This document shows positions 7,938 through 13,928 of a stretch of DNA of 64,000 nt, one piece after another. Positions within the stretch are counted from its first letter, which is position 1. Each line of letters starts with the position of its first letter. Made by a program: the position numbers and the translations under genes. The notes beneath the pieces are model-generated. The model did no database searches, was not told where the DNA came from, and saw only the letters and a list, made by a program, of their open reading frames with translations. The stretch is taken from assembly GCF_014279975.1 (NCBI RefSeq), contig NZ_CP047936.1, forward strand, positions 1,798,001 to 1,862,000, read 5' to 3'. The stretch is from Synechococcus sp. BIOS-U3-1 (lineage in GTDB: Bacteria > Cyanobacteriota > Cyanobacteriia > PCC-6307 > Cyanobiaceae).

Positions 7938-8438
7938 ATGCTCGAGCTGCTTCCACCTCTCAACGACAAAAATTTGCCTTGGCTGGATGTAATCCATCCA
8001 ATCATCGTGCATTTCGTGATCGCGATGGCGCTGATCTCAGTTGTGTTCGATTTAGTTGGTGTGATTACACAAAAGCGCAACCTCTTCGAGGTGAGCTTTT
8101 GGAATCTGGTGGTGGCCACCGTATCCATCTTTGTAGCCATCATCTTCGGACAGATCGAAGCAGGTCTGGCCAGTCCCTACGGAGCAGCACGGGACATCCT
8201 CAACTACCACAGCACCATCGGCTGGTCACTGGCTGGCGTTCTCGGTCTATTTACTGGCTGTCGCTATGTCGTGCGCCAGAAAGATCCAACTCGTCTGCCA
8301 GCAGGGTTTCTGGTCATTGATGGAGTGCTCGCCACGCTGGTGTTCTGCCAGGTGTATCTGGGCGACATGCTCGTTTGGGTCTACGGGCTTCACACCGTGC
8401 CGGTCGTCGACGCTATCCGCAGTGGAGCGGTGTCATGA
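7938..8438 (+). CDS. DUF2231 membrane protein, first of two
   Basis: A 166-residue protein with four predicted membrane helices and the DUF2231 opening in which a histidine pair precedes the first helix (DVIHPIIVHFVIAMALISVVF). Later HSTIGWSLAGVLG and LGDMLVWVYGLHT supply further conserved histidines. DUF2231 proteins often have paired histidines that may bind haem or metal, but their role is not settled. The gene ends in an ATGA overlap with the second DUF2231 gene and leads the oxidase operon. I used the ATG at 7938; a TTG at 7923 is an alternative start. Confidence 0.75.
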   Translation: MLELLPPLNDKNLPWLDVIHPIIVHFVIAMALISVVFDLVGVITQKRNLFEVSFWNLVVATVSIFVAIIFGQIEAGLASPYGAARDILNYHSTIGWSLAGVLGLFTGCRYVVRQKDPTRLPAGFLVIDGVLATLVFCQVYLGDMLVWVYGLHTVPVVDAIRSGAVS

Positions 8439-9070
8439 ACCCCACGGTCCCGTTGCCAATAATCGCGATTCCGTCTCCCATCAATGACATCGTCGATCAG
8501 CTCGGTGCGAATGATCTCCCTTACACGATTCCAATTCACCCAAACCTGGTTCATTTCACGATCGGCTTGTTTGCAATCGGAATCGCATTTGACTTCGCCG
8601 GTGCGATCTATCCACTGGAAAAAAGGATCTTCCGTTTCCTTGCACTCCCAGTAACGCGCACTGGCTTCCATGACGTGGGCTGGTACAACGTCCTCGCCTG
8701 CAGCGTGATCACTTTTTTCACAGTGGCCGCAGGCTTCTTTGAAATGCTTCTGGCCGTGCCGCTGCCTGGCATTCGCAGCGTCATTGGCCAAAACGCCATC
8801 GACACCATGCTTTGGCACGCCATTGGTGGGGTGGCACTACTACTGATCATCGTTGCGATGACCATTTGGCGCGGCTTCCAGCGCTTCGCCTGGCGCAAAG
8901 ACCTGGGTCGCCAGGTGAGCTGGCTGTATCTCGCCTGCGGGGCCGTCATCCTTTTAGTCATGGGGGTTCATGGAAGCCTTGGTGCCTGGCTTGCCAGTGA
9001 ATTTGGCGTGCACATCACAGCTGATCAACTGCTTGCAGCTGGAGCGGATCTGAAGGAGGCACTGCCATGA
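8435..9070 (+). CDS. DUF2231 membrane protein, second of two
   Basis: A 211-residue paralogue of the upstream protein with the same opening signature (IPIHPNLVHFTIGLFAIGIAF) and four hydrophobic segments. Conserved histidines recur in TMLWHAIGGVALL and MGVHGSLGAWLA. The ATG at 8435 overlaps the previous stop by ATGA, and the gene itself overlaps ctaC by ATGA at 9067-9070, so translational coupling is likely across all three. Pairing of DUF2231 genes with a CuA-less oxidase suggests an accessory electron-transfer or assembly role (inference). Confidence 0.75.
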   Translation: MNPTVPLPIIAIPSPINDIVDQLGANDLPYTIPIHPNLVHFTIGLFAIGIAFDFAGAIYPLEKRIFRFLALPVTRTGFHDVGWYNVLACSVITFFTVAAGFFEMLLAVPLPGIRSVIGQNAIDTMLWHAIGGVALLLIIVAMTIWRGFQRFAWRKDLGRQVSWLYLACGAVILLVMGVHGSLGAWLASEFGVHITADQLLAAGADLKEALP

Positions 9071-10014
9071 CGTCCTCGCGCCAAAGCCCGAAAAAAGGTC
9101 TGCCGCTCCGGCTGCTGGCCGTGATCCTGGTCTCCACTGCACTGGATGTGGCAGTGAGTTTCCAGGTGTCGCGCTGGGCCTATGGCTGGTTGCCAGTGCC
9201 CGCATCCACGGCTGCACCTTATGTGGATGATCTGTTCAGCCTTGAGGTCGGGATCGGCGCCTTCGTGTTCATCGGCTGTGTGGGTTTCATTGTCTGGTCG
9301 TTGTTATTCAGTCGTGCTGAAAAGTACGACGAAAGTGATGGTCTTCCGATTGAAGGCAACACCAAACTCGAAATCACCTGGACGGTGATCCCTTTTGTCA
9401 TTGTCATGGCGCTGGCCTTTTATTCGATCCAGGTGAACGAGAAGCTTGCCTCGCTCGGGCCCAAGCAGAAATACGACGTCGCGCTCAATCAGGCTCCCGA
9501 TGCCGTAGCCACCCTGGACGCACGCCGCGACATCGGACCGATCGAGGTGATTTCCAGGCAATGGTCCTGGGAATTTGTTTACCCCGATGGCGTGCGCAGT
9601 TCAGAACTGCATCTACCGCTCAATCAGCGCGCCAACTTTCTGCTGATCTCCGAAGACGTTCTTCACAGCTTCTACATTCCGGCGTTCCGCCTCAAGCAGG
9701 ACATCATTCCAGGAAGTGTGATCTCGTACAGCATCACGCCCACCCGTGAAGGTCGCTTCAGGCTGCGCGATGCCATGTTCAGCGGCGCTTACTTCTCCAA
9801 CAACCAGACCGACGTGATTGTCGAGTCGGAAGAGGAGTACGCCTCCTGGCTGACCACCACAGCCAAGCGCCCACTGGTCCAGGGCCTTAGCCCGGGCACA
9901 GCCCTTTACGAAAAACGCCTCAAGGACGGCGACCGTGGATGGGCGACCGTTCCCCCAGCTCCTCCACCGATGGTCAACGACCCCGGTAATCCCGAAGCGC
10001 CCCACGACGCCTGA
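9067..10014 (+). CDS. ctaC: Haem-copper oxidase subunit II lacking the CuA site (ARTO type)
   Basis: A 315-residue subunit II with two N-terminal membrane helices (about residues 15-35 and 57-80), a further helix near 105-120 after LEITWTVIPF, and a periplasm- or lumen-facing cupredoxin domain. The aromatic segment QWSWEFVYPDG and the first histidine (DVLHSFYIPAFRLKQD) are conserved. The usual CuA loop Cys-x-Glu-x-x-x-Cys-x-x-x-His is absent: the corresponding stretch reads RLRDAMFSGAYFSNNQ, with no Cys and no His. This is the hallmark of the cyanobacterial alternative respiratory terminal oxidase (ARTO, CtaCII). The electron donor is therefore unlikely to be cytochrome c6 through CuA. ctaD follows after 5 bp. 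Confidence 0.9.
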   Translation: MTSSRQSPKKGLPLRLLAVILVSTALDVAVSFQVSRWAYGWLPVPASTAAPYVDDLFSLEVGIGAFVFIGCVGFIVWSLLFSRAEKYDESDGLPIEGNTKLEITWTVIPFVIVMALAFYSIQVNEKLASLGPKQKYDVALNQAPDAVATLDARRDIGPIEVISRQWSWEFVYPDGVRSSELHLPLNQRANFLLISEDVLHSFYIPAFRLKQDIIPGSVISYSITPTREGRFRLRDAMFSGAYFSNNQTDVIVESEEEYASWLTTTAKRPLVQGLSPGTALYEKRLKDGDRGWATVPPAPPPMVNDPGNPEAPHDA

Positions 10015-10019
10015 CCCCG

Positions 10020-11708
10020 ATGACCAGCGCCAAATACGACCCCAGAGTGCTCAAGGCACCCCACCCTGTTCCAGGTGCTCCTGACAACTGGAAGCGCTTC
10101 TTCAGTTTCAACACCGACGCGAAAGTGATCGGAATTCAGTACATCGGGCTGTCACTGTTCTTCCTGATGGTGGGTGGTCTCCTGGCCATGGTCATGCGCG
10201 GTGAATTGATCACTCCTCCGGCAGATCTCGTCGATCCGAGTGTCTACAACGGGCTCTACACAATGCACGGGACAGTAATGCTGTTCCTGTTCCTGTTCCC
10301 GGTCCTGAATGGATTCAACAACCTGTTGATCCCCACCATGATCGGAGCTCCGGACATGGCTTTTCCCAAGCTGAACGCCGCAGCTTTCTGGCTGGTGCCT
10401 GTCTTTGCTGTCGTACTACTGAGCAGCTTCTTCGTGCCTGGAGGACCAGCCTCATCGGGGTGGTGGTCCTATCCACCGGTCAGCATTCAGAACCCTCTTG
10501 GTCATCTAATCAATGGTGAATTTCTCTGGATCCTGGCAGTAGCGATCTCCGGGGTGTCATCGATCATGGGTGCGATCAATTTCGTCACAACGATCATCCG
10601 CATGCGGGCGCCCGGAATGGGCTTTTTCAAGATGCCCGTCTTTGTCTGGACAGCATGGGCCGCCCAGACTCTTCAGCTGATTGGTCTACCCGCACTCACG
10701 GGAGGAGCCATCATGTTGATGTTCGATCTCAGTTTCGGAACCAGTTTCTTCCGACCTGAAGGAGGAGGAGATCCAGTGCTTTACCAGCACTTTTTCTGGT
10801 TCTACTCCCATCCTGCGGTGTACGTGATGGTTCTGCCTGTGTTCGGCATCTTCTCAGAGCTAATCACGGTTTATTCACGCAAACCACTATTCGGCTACAA
10901 ATTCGTGGCATTGGCCTCATTCATCATCACTTTCCTGGGCTTGATCGTCTGGGTGCATCACATGTTCTATACCGGAACGCCACAGTGGATGCGCAATCTG
11001 GTGATGATCACAACCATGCTGATTGCTGTACCCACCGGAGTGAAAGTATTTGCCTGGCTGGGAACACTCTGGGGGGCAAAGATCCGTCTTAGCACACCGA
11101 TGTTATTCGTTCTGGGGGGCCTTGTGAATTTCATTTTCGGAGGCATCACCGGCGTCATGCTCGGCACAGTTCCCATCGATATCCACGTGGGCAACACCTA
11201 TTTCGTTGTTGCCCACTTTCACTACATCATTTTCAACACGATTGGTTTTGGAATCTTCGCTGGCATCTATCACTGGTTCCCAAAATTCACCGGCCGGATG
11301 TACTACGAAGGGCTCGGAAAAATTCATTTCACCCTCACCTTCATTGGTGCAACTCTCAACTGGCTTCCGCTGCACTGGGCCGGCCTCTACGGCATGCCTC
11401 GACGCGTTGCCTCCTATGACCCTGAGTTCGCCCTCTGGAATGTGATTGCAAGTATCGGAGCCTTCATGTTGGGGGTGGCTTCCATTCCCTTCATCCTCAA
11501 CATCGTGAGCTCCTGGGCAAGGGGTGCCAAAGCCCCCGCCAATCCCTGGAGAGCGATCGGACTGGAGTGGTTGCTTCCCTCGCCGCCGCCGGCTGAAAAT
11601 TTCGAAGACGATATTCCCACTGTGATCAGCGAGCCCTATGGCTATGGCCTGGGCAAACCCCTTGTCGAAGACGAGGAGTTTTATGTCCGACGCTCCATGG
11701 AGGCCTGA
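10020..11708 (+). CDS. ctaD: Haem-copper oxidase subunit I (ARTO type)
   Basis: A 562-residue, roughly 12-helix catalytic subunit. The low-spin haem histidine is in LYTMHGTVMLFLF. The CuB His-Tyr pair is in WFYSHPAVYVMVLP, the other CuB histidines in VWVHHMFYTG, K-channel residues in VPTGVKVFAWLGTLWGA, and the haem histidines in YFVVAHFHYIIFN. The normal HPEVY motif reads HPAVY, so the gating glutamate of the D-channel is missing, as I recall for ARTO-type subunits. It reduces oxygen to water at a haem-copper centre. It sits between ctaC (5 bp before) and ctaE (3 bp after). Confidence 0.93.
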   Translation: MTSAKYDPRVLKAPHPVPGAPDNWKRFFSFNTDAKVIGIQYIGLSLFFLMVGGLLAMVMRGELITPPADLVDPSVYNGLYTMHGTVMLFLFLFPVLNGFNNLLIPTMIGAPDMAFPKLNAAAFWLVPVFAVVLLSSFFVPGGPASSGWWSYPPVSIQNPLGHLINGEFLWILAVAISGVSSIMGAINFVTTIIRMRAPGMGFFKMPVFVWTAWAAQTLQLIGLPALTGGAIMLMFDLSFGTSFFRPEGGGDPVLYQHFFWFYSHPAVYVMVLPVFGIFSELITVYSRKPLFGYKFVALASFIITFLGLIVWVHHMFYTGTPQWMRNLVMITTMLIAVPTGVKVFAWLGTLWGAKIRLSTPMLFVLGGLVNFIFGGITGVMLGTVPIDIHVGNTYFVVAHFHYIIFNTIGFGIFAGIYHWFPKFTGRMYYEGLGKIHFTLTFIGATLNWLPLHWAGLYGMPRRVASYDPEFALWNVIASIGAFMLGVASIPFILNIVSSWARGAKAPANPWRAIGLEWLLPSPPPAENFEDDIPTVISEPYGYGLGKPLVEDEEFYVRRSMEA

Positions 11709-11711
11709 ACA

Positions 11712-12317
11712 ATGACCAGCGCCAATGTTGATTTACCGCTCAAGCACAAACCCGGACATATCAAACATGACGGGCACAATTTGACGGGATTTATCATATT
11801 TCTATGCTCGGAAAGCATTATCTTTCTGGCGTTTTTTGTTGGTTATGCACTGCTGAAGATCACGAGTCCCGAATGGCTTCCGGAAGGTGTCGAAGGTCTC
11901 GAAACACGGATGCCATTAATCAACACAGTCATTCTTGTGAGCTCCAGTTTTGTTGCCTACTTCGCTGAACGCTATCTCCACAAAGAGAATCTCTGGGGAT
12001 TCCGGGCAATGTGGCTACTCACAATGGCCATGGGAAGTTACTTCGTCTATGGGCAATATGTCGAGTGGTCAGAGCTGGCATTCAGCTTGAGCAGCGGAGT
12101 ATTCGGGGGAACGTTCTACTTACTGACCGGTTTTCACGGCCTTCATGTGATCACAGGAATCCTGCTGATGGGCCTGATGTTGGCGCGTTCCTTCCGCCCA
12201 AACAACTACGCCAAGGGGGAAATGGGCGTCACGGCAGTGAGCCTGTTCTGGCATTTCGTGGATGTGATCTGGATCATCCTTTATGTGCTGATTTATGTGT
12301 GGCAGCGAACCAGCTGA
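11712..12317 (+). CDS. ctaE: Haem-copper oxidase subunit III (ARTO type)
   Basis: A 201-residue protein with five predicted membrane helices and the short subunit III form. Family features are FIIFLCSESIIFLAFF near the N-terminus (conserved acidic residue in a helix), TGFHGLHVITGILLMG (the HGxHV motif, about residues 139-154) and the terminal FWHFVDVIWIILYVLIYVW. It completes the ctaCDE order. The GMC oxidoreductase gene starts 41 bp later on the same strand and may be in the same transcript. Confidence 0.92.
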   Translation: MTSANVDLPLKHKPGHIKHDGHNLTGFIIFLCSESIIFLAFFVGYALLKITSPEWLPEGVEGLETRMPLINTVILVSSSFVAYFAERYLHKENLWGFRAMWLLTMAMGSYFVYGQYVEWSELAFSLSSGVFGGTFYLLTGFHGLHVITGILLMGLMLARSFRPNNYAKGEMGVTAVSLFWHFVDVIWIILYVLIYVWQRTS

Positions 12318-12358
12318 TCGCTTCTGCATCACTCAGTTTTCAACAACCTCAGCCATCC

Positions 12359-13879
12359 ATGATCATCGACGACCGCCATTACGACATCATCATCGTCGGC
12401 AGTGGTGCCGGCGGAGGGACTCTTGCAGGGGCGCTCACCCGCCAGGGCAGAAGCGTTCTGCTTCTAGAGCGAGGAGAAGCCATGGCACTAAGTGATCAAA
12501 ACGTGGCCGATGTAGATCTGCTCCGCAAGGATCGCTATCACCCCACGGATGAACGCTGGTTCGGTCCAGATGGAGACCCTTTCGCACCTCAAACCGCCTA
12601 CAGCCTGGGTGGCAACACCAAGATCTGGGGAGCAGTGTTGGAACGCATGCGCGACAAGGATTTCGGTGAGGTGTCACTGCAGCATGGTGTTTCACCAGCC
12701 TGGCCTTTCGATTACGCCCATCTGGCTCCCTACTACGACCAGGCTGAGACGCTCTACCGGGTTCACGGTCAGGCCCATATCGACCCCACGGAGCCTGCAC
12801 GCAGTAAAGACTTCGACCATGCGCCACGTCCGGTGGTGCCGTTCCTCGAGCAGCTTCGCGAAGGGCTACAGCGCCACGGCTGCCAGCCTTACGACCTGCC
12901 TCTCAGCTGGTCCGAAAGCAAAGAAGATCCCAGCGGTGACTCCCAGCTCTTCGGCCTAGACAGGGCCGACCCAAGCAAGCTGGAGGTTCGAACTCTGTCC
13001 AAGGTTCTGCGGTTGCATGTGAGCCCCAGTGGACGAGATGTGAAGCGGGTGGAGGCGGATGTAGACGGCGAGGTCTGGCTTTTCTCCTCCGATCTGGTGG
13101 TACTGGCAGCCGGTGCAATCAATACGCCGGCCATCCTGCTGCGATCTAGCAACGAACGTCACCCCCGTGGCCTCAGCAACAAGTCAGACCAGGTGGGTAG
13201 AAACCTGATGAATGTTCAGCTCACCTCGATCCTGCAGCGTTCCGCGGAAGCTAACAGCGGTCGTTACGCCCGTTCCTTCGGCATCAACGACTACTACTGG
13301 GGAGACAAGAACGTGACGTTCCCACTGGGGCACATTCAGTCCGCAGGCGGAGTGCTGCAGGACGCACTATTCGCAGAATCACCGCCAGTGTTGTCACTGG
13401 TCAGCAAGTTGATTCCTGATTTTGGATTGGAGCGCCTGGCATCGCGATCAGTCGCCTGGTGGGCCATGACCGAAGTGCTTCCCGATCCAGAAAACAAGGT
13501 ATGGCTGAACAAAGAACAGATCCGCATCAATTATCTCCATAACAATCTGGAAGCCCACGACCGACTGGTGTATCGCTGGATCGACACCCTCAAATCCGTG
13601 GAGGCCGATCCGGTCACCAAGGTGGTGACGTCAGAGCCCGTGCATCCCCGCGGCGAAGCACCTCTCAGCGTGGTGGGCTACGGCTGCGGCACCTGTCGAA
13701 TGGGTGAAGATCCCGTCGCATCCGTCGTGGATGCAGATGGAAAGTGCCATGAACTTGAGAACGTCTACATCACCGACAGCAGTATTTTTCCAAGCTGCCC
13801 AAGCGTGGGACCAGGTCTCACCACTATTGCCCTGGCACTGCGCATGGCAGAAACACTTCACCAACGGCTGCACAACTGA
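12359..13879 (+). CDS. GMC-family FAD-dependent oxidoreductase
   Basis: A 506-residue flavoprotein. The FAD dinucleotide-binding motif IIVGSGAGGGTLAGAL lies at about residues 9-24, followed by LLLERGE. SLGGNTKIWGAVLER matches the GMC signature region, and the C-terminal part has GCGTCRMGEDPVASVVD and SIFPSCPSVGPGLTTIALA. Members oxidise alcohols or sugars; the substrate cannot be told here. The ATG at 12359 precedes the Rossmann motif; the same frame is open back to 12011 inside ctaE but that extension is unrelated protein. It lies 41 bp after ctaE, so it may pass electrons towards the oxidase chain (inference). Confidence 0.85.
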   Translation: MIIDDRHYDIIIVGSGAGGGTLAGALTRQGRSVLLLERGEAMALSDQNVADVDLLRKDRYHPTDERWFGPDGDPFAPQTAYSLGGNTKIWGAVLERMRDKDFGEVSLQHGVSPAWPFDYAHLAPYYDQAETLYRVHGQAHIDPTEPARSKDFDHAPRPVVPFLEQLREGLQRHGCQPYDLPLSWSESKEDPSGDSQLFGLDRADPSKLEVRTLSKVLRLHVSPSGRDVKRVEADVDGEVWLFSSDLVVLAAGAINTPAILLRSSNERHPRGLSNKSDQVGRNLMNVQLTSILQRSAEANSGRYARSFGINDYYWGDKNVTFPLGHIQSAGGVLQDALFAESPPVLSLVSKLIPDFGLERLASRSVAWWAMTEVLPDPENKVWLNKEQIRINYLHNNLEAHDRLVYRWIDTLKSVEADPVTKVVTSEPVHPRGEAPLSVVGYGCGTCRMGEDPVASVVDADGKCHELENVYITDSSIFPSCPSVGPGLTTIALALRMAETLHQRLHN

Positions 13880-13886
13880 TCCTGGG

Positions 13887-13928
13887 ACCACTCCGATCAT
13901 GAGCTGATCAGCTCATGATCGGAGTGGT
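13887..13928. terminator. 42-bp perfect palindrome between convergent genes
   Basis: The 21 bases from 13887 are the exact reverse complement of the 21 bases ending at 13928, with no spacer. The centre is AGCTGATCAGCT. It lies 7 bp after the GMC stop and 10 bp before the end of the glutathione reductase gene, where the two transcripts converge. Either strand could fold into a hairpin of about 19 bp with a 4-nt loop, suited to a bidirectional terminator. There is no T-run on either side, so it is not a textbook intrinsic terminator. Confidence 0.7.

Follow-up and report, generated by a model that had tools for sequence, protein, structure and literature searches.

How electrons enter a haem-copper oxidase whose subunit II has lost the CuA centre is the question raised by a six-gene cassette of the cyanobacterium Synechococcus sp. 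BIOS-U3-1 (assembly GCF_014279975.1, contig NZ_CP047936.1, positions 1,798,001 to 1,862,000). Positions below refer to this stretch of 64,000 nucleotides, here called the window, and L and G numbers denote our loci and genomes. The oxidase is ARTO, the cyanobacterial CuA-less haem-copper oxidase, which is already known and whose electron donor, to our knowledge, is not settled. The cassette lies at 7938-13879 on the plus strand in the order DUF2231A-DUF2231B-ctaC-ctaD-ctaE-GMC, with coordinates and frames rechecked, and since the same gene order recurs across the class Cyanobacteriia it goes beyond chance. The cassette is a real, class-wide unit around a known oxidase, and the two DUF2231 proteins are the near-constant partners of that oxidase. 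Its genes are:

7938..8438, plus strand: DUF2231 protein A, 166 aa; four predicted helices; invariant H20, H25, E74, H91, Q138 and H152
8435..9070, plus strand: DUF2231 protein B, 211 aa; paralogue of A; invariant H35, H40, E103, H128 and H193
9067..10014, plus strand: ctaC2, oxidase subunit II; CuA loop ligands gone (C to D, C to S, H to F)
10020..11708, plus strand: ctaD2, oxidase subunit I of the A2 type (YSHPAVY); retains the haem and CuB histidines; has Gly-Asn at the Mg site in place of His-Asp
11712..12317, plus strand: ctaE2, oxidase subunit III (from Pfam)
12359..13879, plus strand: GMC-family flavoprotein with a CGTC motif; Tyr in place of the canonical catalytic His; by eye, no signal at the N-terminus

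Coordinates and Pfam agree with the preliminary description of two DUF2231 genes joined to ctaC by ATGA overlaps (A/B at 8435, DUF2231B/ctaC at 9067) and of a GMC gene beginning 41 bp after ctaE. Both small genes match DUF2231 (PF09990; 4.5e-34 for A and 4.3e-39 for B, 117.9 and 134.2 bits against a cut-off of 26.4), the oxidase genes match COX2_TM and COX2, COX1 and COX3, and the last gene matches PF00732 (GMC_oxred_N, 25.3 bits, cut-off 23) and PF05199 (GMC_oxred_C, 63.9 bits, cut-off 24.6).

Ordinary cyanobacterial subunits II have CAELCGxYHxxM in the CuA loop; the window protein has RLRDAMFSGAYFSNNQ, with Asp, Ser and Phe where the ligands Cys, Cys and His are expected, which bears out the earlier report of a loop with neither Cys nor His. 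The subunit II fold is retained, as judged by sequence, and so is the upstream CuA histidine H200 (VLHSFY), which is invariant in 14/14 CuA-less rows. CtaD falls inside a clade of 41 rows (Shimodaira-Hasegawa-like approximate likelihood ratio test, SH-aLRT, 100) and there within a subset of 26 rows (97), on a long branch of 0.8 in a tree built by a quick method; 38 of the 41 rows come from loci with a CuA-less ctaC (one a fragment) and three from stretches without ctaC. This placement, the CuA-less CtaC homologue and the two small membrane genes upstream identify the oxidase as ARTO. The host genome (2.71 Mb) encodes two A-type oxidases, the cassette enzyme and an ordinary one (L084; CAELCG, His-Asp).

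The motif HPAVY, singled out in the preliminary description as unusual, is present in subunit I but is not distinctive: YSHPAVY occurs in 25/25 aligned cyanobacterial CtaD sequences, 13 of the CuA-less type and 12 of the CuA or Gloeobacter type, and we rejected it as a special feature. It is what is expected of A2-type oxidases, to which all cyanobacterial A-type oxidases belong, with a tyrosine replacing the glutamate (PMC3084760). The window CtaD shows YSHPAVY, with the D-channel glutamate changed to tyrosine, together with the haem and CuB ligands of this type. Together with the active-site Tyr and with D135 and K362 of the proton channels, all likewise kept, these ligands make it probable that O2 reduction is retained.

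Escherichia coli bo3 (CyoABCD) resembles ARTO in lacking CuA, in its haem-copper subunit I and in the quinol donor that has been proposed for both. However, it has HPEVY in place of the A2-type YSHPAVY, and the subunit I residues R71, D75, H98 and Q101, which we take to be the bo3 quinol site, are present in 0/13 CuA-less CtaD sequences in our alignment. The window cassette also differs in having the DUF2231 pair alongside, and no CyoD gene was seen in it. With the CuA ligands and the bo3 residues both absent, both known entry routes are missing, and electrons must therefore enter otherwise.

To investigate whether the DUF2231 pair belongs to the CuA-less enzyme, we surveyed 116 Cyanobacteriia genomes. 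DUF2231 was found in 61 of them, as 50 tandem pairs (46 genomes) and 37 single places, three matches below the cut-off being left out of this grouping. A profile of CuA-less CtaC splits the class, with 42 genes at 388 bits or more and the next match at 293, and on reading the CuA motif is absent from all 42. These genes are spread over 39 of the 116 genomes, every one of which (39/39) also carries a tandem DUF2231 pair, compared with 7/77 genomes lacking a CuA-less ctaC (Fisher p 5e-24, a descriptive value that ignores shared descent). At the level of single genes, the pair lies upstream on the same strand for 39/42 CuA-less ctaC, within 200 bp in 34 cases, within 1500 bp in four and farther in one; of the other three, one begins at a contig edge and two lie in genomes with pairs elsewhere. 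By comparison, a pair was found upstream of 4/106 CuA-type ctaC among the matches listed. The latter number is that of the 108 lower-scoring matches listed less two fragments; six of the 108 have an upstream pair, four of them CuA-bearing and two of them the fragments, which are uncertain or CuA-less. The comparison thus came out as the preliminary description anticipated, with pairs far commoner beside CuA-less than beside CuA-type ctaC.

Subunit I gave the same picture: all 50 pair loci were fetched, and among the 41 CtaD sequences read in them none is of the ordinary His-Asp type. COX1 places were taken from the 150 matches listed plus two places of our own; of the 118 away from pairs, 51 were fetched for the tree and three more were added, and because absence of a pair was the criterion for choosing these loci, they do not count as evidence on this point. 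Two other row sets of the analysis (A2 and A3) took 44/48 and 42/45 eligible rows, plus the window. A further 80 loci were found through DUF2231B and can test gene order only; A, B and ctaC occur together in 78 of them, one lacking A and one lacking ctaC at its edge. The cassette is unevenly spread among relatives in the window's family, with a pair in 1/10 genomes sampled. We also considered the single DUF2231 genes as further oxidase partners, and rejected this, as none of the 37 single places (which include one broken stretch of 40 aa and one at a contig edge) lies within 8 kb of a COX1 among the matches listed. Altogether, the partnership of the DUF2231 pair with the oxidase is well supported.

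The second recurrent neighbour is a flavoenzyme. GMC lies downstream on the same strand in 29/37 readable CuA-less pair loci, the window included, with gaps of up to 717 bp. The eight without GMC in the stretch have NDH-2 in four cases (L055, L060, L070, L074) and neither gene in four, which brings loci with a flavoenzyme neighbour to 33/37. The rest of the 50 pair loci comprise four cut by contig ends, four CuA-bearing ones without GMC or NDH-2, one with ctaD and no ctaC, two with ccoNO and NDH-2, and two reduced ones (L043, L063) with NDH-2 upstream. One of these two, L043 (4520-6209), has NDH-2 upstream of the pair, a ctaC cut to its 105-aa membrane part and a short ctaD with an odd end, and looks like a decaying copy. 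Additional cases are L046, a GMC locus with a distant NDH-2-like gene as well (119 bits), and 13 further cyanobacterial pair stretches, some partial: GMC occurs in four, a strong NDH-2 match lies to one side or the other in six, and neither is present in the remainder. In Fischerella the order is ctaB-ndbC-A-B-ctaC-ctaD-ctaE. Of the 80 loci found through DUF2231B, which are of Synechococcus/Prochlorococcus/Cyanobium type, 71 extend at least 700 bp beyond ctaE; GMC follows in 69/71, and in 66 the gap is no more than 60 bp. In L212, one of the two exceptions, a long GMC frame is present but was excluded by rule. GMC, noted earlier at this one locus, is therefore a regular neighbour.

GMC and NDH-2 both belong to families that reduce quinones, and glucose dehydrogenase, fructose dehydrogenase and MftG are GMC-family enzymes that feed respiratory chains. 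The nearest solved structures to the window GMC are the flavin adenine dinucleotide (FAD)-dependent glucose dehydrogenase (4.5e-28) and fructose dehydrogenase (8.4e-22), and its match to MftG is far below the cut-off. The window protein has both the N and the C domain of the family; Tyr replaces the HxxGT histidine of the C domain, the canonical GMC catalytic histidine. Window-type GMC proteins differ from the membrane-bound FAD dehydrogenases in that this histidine is mostly replaced and a CGTC motif is conserved (Cys in 94 and 98 of 100 relatives), and no gene for a small or cytochrome subunit stands alongside the window GMC.

The two small genes upstream of ARTO were known earlier, without a role. 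In Anabaena the operon is alr2729-alr2730-coxB3-coxA3-coxC3, with the existence of more subunits called unclear, and the ARTO described there (CtaII, Cox3/Qox) has, like the window, a CuA-less subunit II, subunits I-III in order and two small genes upstream (PMC6616624). The available text of the ARTO papers differs in naming three oxidase subunits and leaving alr2729 and alr2730 unnamed or as 'putative membrane protein' (PMC6616624, PMC4390870, PMC7065334). A Trichormus variabilis record shows the window's arrangement in full (DUF2231, DUF2231, subunit II, ctaD, subunit III, GMC), and from this record and from position we infer that alr2729 and alr2730 are DUF2231 genes. New here are the identification of the upstream pair as DUF2231 paralogues with invariant histidines, and of GMC as a regular downstream gene. 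In the open-access papers searched we found no link between DUF2231 and ARTO, DUF2231 being named there on another subject only, nor did we find 'GMC oxidoreductase' together with ctaC2/ctaD2 or a terminal oxidase operon in cyanobacteria. The transcript levels of alr2729, alr2730, cox3B and cox3A fall together in an Anabaena transcriptome (-4.3, -3.8, -4.2 and -5.1; PMC7065334), and alr2729/alr2730 and coxB3 are among sigC-dependent genes, not always in one table (PMC4390870).

We then turned to the DUF2231 proteins themselves. A and B are paralogous (27% identity over 121 aa, E 3e-9; profile probability 99.6%), and the paired histidines near helices that were pointed out earlier are part of a set of four invariant His and one Glu, present in 50/50 A and in 50/50 B. 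The invariance of H20, H25 and H91 of A extends to three proteins from outside the class, found in Methylocystis, in Sphingorhabdus and in one genome of the same phylum. Predicted models are four-helix bundles (predicted local distance difference test, pLDDT, 82.7 for A and 74.5 for B), in which H25/H91 of A and H40/H128 of B lie on transmembrane helices TM1 and TM3, level within two residues by arithmetic on the model helix boundaries. As placed by these boundaries, the histidines would suit one bis-His site per protein, although the fold matches were weak. Mean lysine plus arginine counts are 2.0 and 3.8 (A) and 1.9 and 4.8 (B) in loops 1-2 and 3-4, below 0.8 in the N-terminus and loop 2-3, and 1.4 (A) and 1.9 (B) in the C-terminus, which places the histidine end on the predicted periplasmic/lumenal side.

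The searches made found no function for DUF2231, and comparing the DUF2231B profile with PDB chains gave no match up to an E of 10. An ancestry in CydA or in subunit III was considered, as the top Foldseek matches were CydA of M. smegmatis for A and a mycobacterial subunit III for B, and was rejected (E of at least 0.2). An apparent A-B gene fusion, a 401-aa frame in G185, proved to be two open reading frames. Outside the class, single DUF2231 matches occur in nine genomes of the same phylum; seven of these were compared with the cassette proteins, giving weak matches in three (15 to 26 bits) and none in four. Within the class, 24 loci (L005-L031) hold a single DUF2231 subfamily with an HPLHP..VT-type motif; its frequent neighbour is a protein that begins with a GLGEQALSK-like sequence.

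The pair is not confined to CuA-less oxidases. In 4/50 pair loci (L041, L054, L062 and L078, from Gloeobacter-like families) it precedes a ctaC whose CuA ligands are kept as CTQLCGxYH, and the CtaD of these CTQLCG loci has Ser-Asn where ordinary cytochrome c oxidase (COX) has His-Asp, a position that we take to be the Mg site between CuA and haem a. The same combination, with CuA kept, the loop Glu changed to Gln (CTQLCG) and His-Asp changed to Ser-Asn, is seen in these four loci and in L117 and L221. In the CtaD tree the sequences fall into three groups: the 41 CuA-less rows, with Asn-Asn in 38, Gly-Asn in the window, one His-Asn and one unread; six CTQ/SN rows; and 44 ordinary rows, 42 with His-Asp and two unread by pattern. 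It is possible that the CTQ/SN oxidases are an intermediate on the way to CuA loss, and the pair may be older than that loss, the order of events not being settled by a quick tree with a midpoint root for drawing only. As four CTQ/SN loci have the pair with CuA kept, the pair tracks a remodelled CuA/Mg interface, not CuA loss alone.

A further partnership is found with C-type oxidases. The order ccoN-ccoO-A-B-NDH2 occurs in Synechococcus elongatus-type genomes (L039, L048) and in one of another family (L258):

L039, 6728-11804: cbb3-like ccoNO, DUF2231 pair and NDH-2 operon (Pfam)
L258, 1008-6132: the same (similarity and reading)
L048: the same (similarity and reading)

These loci resemble the ARTO cassettes in having the DUF2231 pair, followed by NDH-2, and differ in the oxidase class, in the presence of a haem c subunit and in the lack of ctaC in the locus. 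FixO is found in 3/116 genomes, two of which show this arrangement. No CcoP gene was seen within the three loci, and the PF13442 matches in G011 and G031 (five each) do not adjoin the ccoNO-pair locus.

What, then, might the pair do? The claim that it replaces CuA is too simple: the pair does track CuA-less ctaC, but the four CuA-bearing loci and the three ccoNO-NDH2 genomes carry it as well. The reading we favour, tentatively and at somewhat less than an even chance, is that the pair forms a membrane electron-entry module, with b-haem or a quinol site, for an oxidase without both usual entry sites, and is fed via plastoquinone by GMC or NDH-2. The pair is the candidate because it is the most constant extra component, lies on the predicted right side of the membrane and has histidines resembling haem ligands; feeding by the flavoenzyme is proposed because both neighbours come from quinone-reducing families. 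The six genes would then constitute one plastoquinone-linked respiratory branch, in which CtaC, CtaD and CtaE form a haem-copper oxidase that lost CuA and the neighbouring Mg site, and DUF2231A and DUF2231B are bound to it in the membrane as a heterodimer. Plastoquinone would be reduced by a cytosolic flavoprotein, which is GMC in the window and NDH-2 in certain other lineages. The pair would either oxidise quinol directly on the periplasmic/lumenal side or carry electrons on a haem ligated by its histidines on TM1 and TM3, and would hand them to the low-spin haem of CtaD, giving a chain from flavoenzyme through plastoquinol, DUF2231 pair and low-spin haem to O2. The heterodimer, the binding of haem or quinol, the path of electrons and the role and substrate of GMC are predictions of this model. 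The preliminary interpretation is thus partly supported, and its electron-entry idea is now a specific and testable proposal.

Several observations weigh against the electron-entry reading. Two CuA-less ctaC genes have no adjoining pair, even though their own genomes hold one elsewhere; two CTQ/SN oxidases have none either (L117 and L221, the genome of the latter not being among those with a DUF2231 match); and the four pairs in front of a CuA-bearing ctaC show that the pair is not strictly a CuA substitute. Ordinary COX also lacks the bo3 residues R71, D75 and H98 (12/12). The structural models are middling, with pLDDT down to 67 and 55 for others; Foldseek gave no match with E <= 0.001 for the DUF2231 models, VIA Z reached 13.6 at most, in a range called uninformative for helical bundles, and profile comparison of DUF2231 with CydA and with subunit III gave no match. 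The TM1 histidine (H25 position) is Thr or Ile in 24/24 single DUF2231 genes read, with H91 kept, and in Sphingorhabdus a DUF2231 gene sits in a plasmid copper-resistance cluster, between copC and a DUF411 gene (L219, 5136-6930). The GMC catalytic histidine is present in just 12/87 relatives read (13/100 being unread). In the Anabaena table mentioned above the cox2 genes fall as much, so that the co-change is not specific (PMC7065334).

The main rival to the electron-entry module is a role in copper or haem assembly. The pair would be a dedicated biogenesis factor, for copper delivery (CopD-like) or haem handling (CtaM-/CtaA-like), and carry no electrons in the finished enzyme; we regard this as unlikely, if far from negligible. 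It would fit CuA-less, CuA-bearing and cbb3-like partners alike, because all need CuB and haem, yet ordinary COX needs them too and has the pair at 4/106 CuA-type matches listed, all of them CTQ/SN. The copper context of Sphingorhabdus speaks for it, as does a lone pair in Gloeothece, whose stretch includes a four-helix copper-binding protein nearby and lacks any oxidase gene. In Fischerella and L070, ctaB (haem O synthase) stands beside NDH-2 and the pair, but ctaB is also near many ordinary COX genes. A precedent exists in the four-helix DUF420 protein CtaM, which is needed for active oxidase (PMC8239418). However, biogenesis leaves the recurrent flavoenzymes unexplained, and a position at the operon head, joined to subunit II by an ATGA overlap, would be just as natural for a subunit. 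A subunit without redox function is a further possibility, and a decidedly less probable one, with the DUF2231 proteins as structural accessories, quinol oxidised at a new CtaD/CtaC site and the histidines serving proton transfer or stability. ARTO is called a bo3-type quinol oxidase, with plastoquinol assumed as its donor (PMC6616624, PMC9313322), and in shape the bundles come near to subunit III (VIA Z ~13 for A); yet their profiles do not match that of subunit III, the CuA-less CtaD lacks the residues of the bo3 quinol site, and three to four His invariant across distant DUF2231 proteins are more than a structural part needs.

Finally, the cassette might mainly serve to reduce metals in the periplasm: the pair would draw on the quinol pool to reduce ferric iron or cupric copper, with the oxidase coupled to it as a partner. 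Impaired Fe reduction and uptake have been reported for a Synechocystis mutant in ctaD2/ctaE2, and ctaC2-D2-E2 is found in most low-iron Prochlorococcus (PMC10119275); the histidines are on the predicted periplasmic side, and Gloeothece and Sphingorhabdus supply copper contexts. We nevertheless consider it very improbable, as the window CtaD retains its catalytic and proton-channel residues and any metal site is hypothetical. Returning to the electron-entry module, a wider version of it is doubtful: the pair may be a portable module, a new kind of quinol-oxidising membrane cytochrome or a quinol-binding pair, which can join haem-copper oxidases of more than one class and often brings a flavoenzyme (GMC or NDH-2) with it. 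Its hosts may be A2 oxidases with CuA (Gloeobacter-like), A2 oxidases without CuA (ARTO) and C-type ccoNO (S. elongatus-type), and its arrival would have preceded and allowed loss of the Mg site and then of CuA.

A CuA-less oxidase is present in 39 of the sampled genomes, and a near-constant two-protein partner with specific histidines makes the question of the ARTO donor testable by mutation. DUF2231 would, if the electron-entry reading is true, gain a function, and a stepwise loss of CuA might be traceable from CAELCG with His-Asp, through CTQLCG with Ser-Asn, to no CuA with Asn-Asn.

Two minor observations concern the wider setting. A record titled as a Bifidobacterium breve metagenome-assembled genome (L188) holds a cyanobacterial ARTO operon, and its title or bin is therefore probably wrong. 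In the window, one feature follows the cassette:

13888..13927, strand not applicable: perfect palindrome of 40 bp that separates GMC from the convergent glutathione reductase gene (gor), read from the sequence

A terminator scan that required a T run did not flag this palindrome. As it lies directly between the two convergent genes, transcription could stop just past GMC, and the palindrome may be a transcript end for both the GMC and the glutathione reductase genes.

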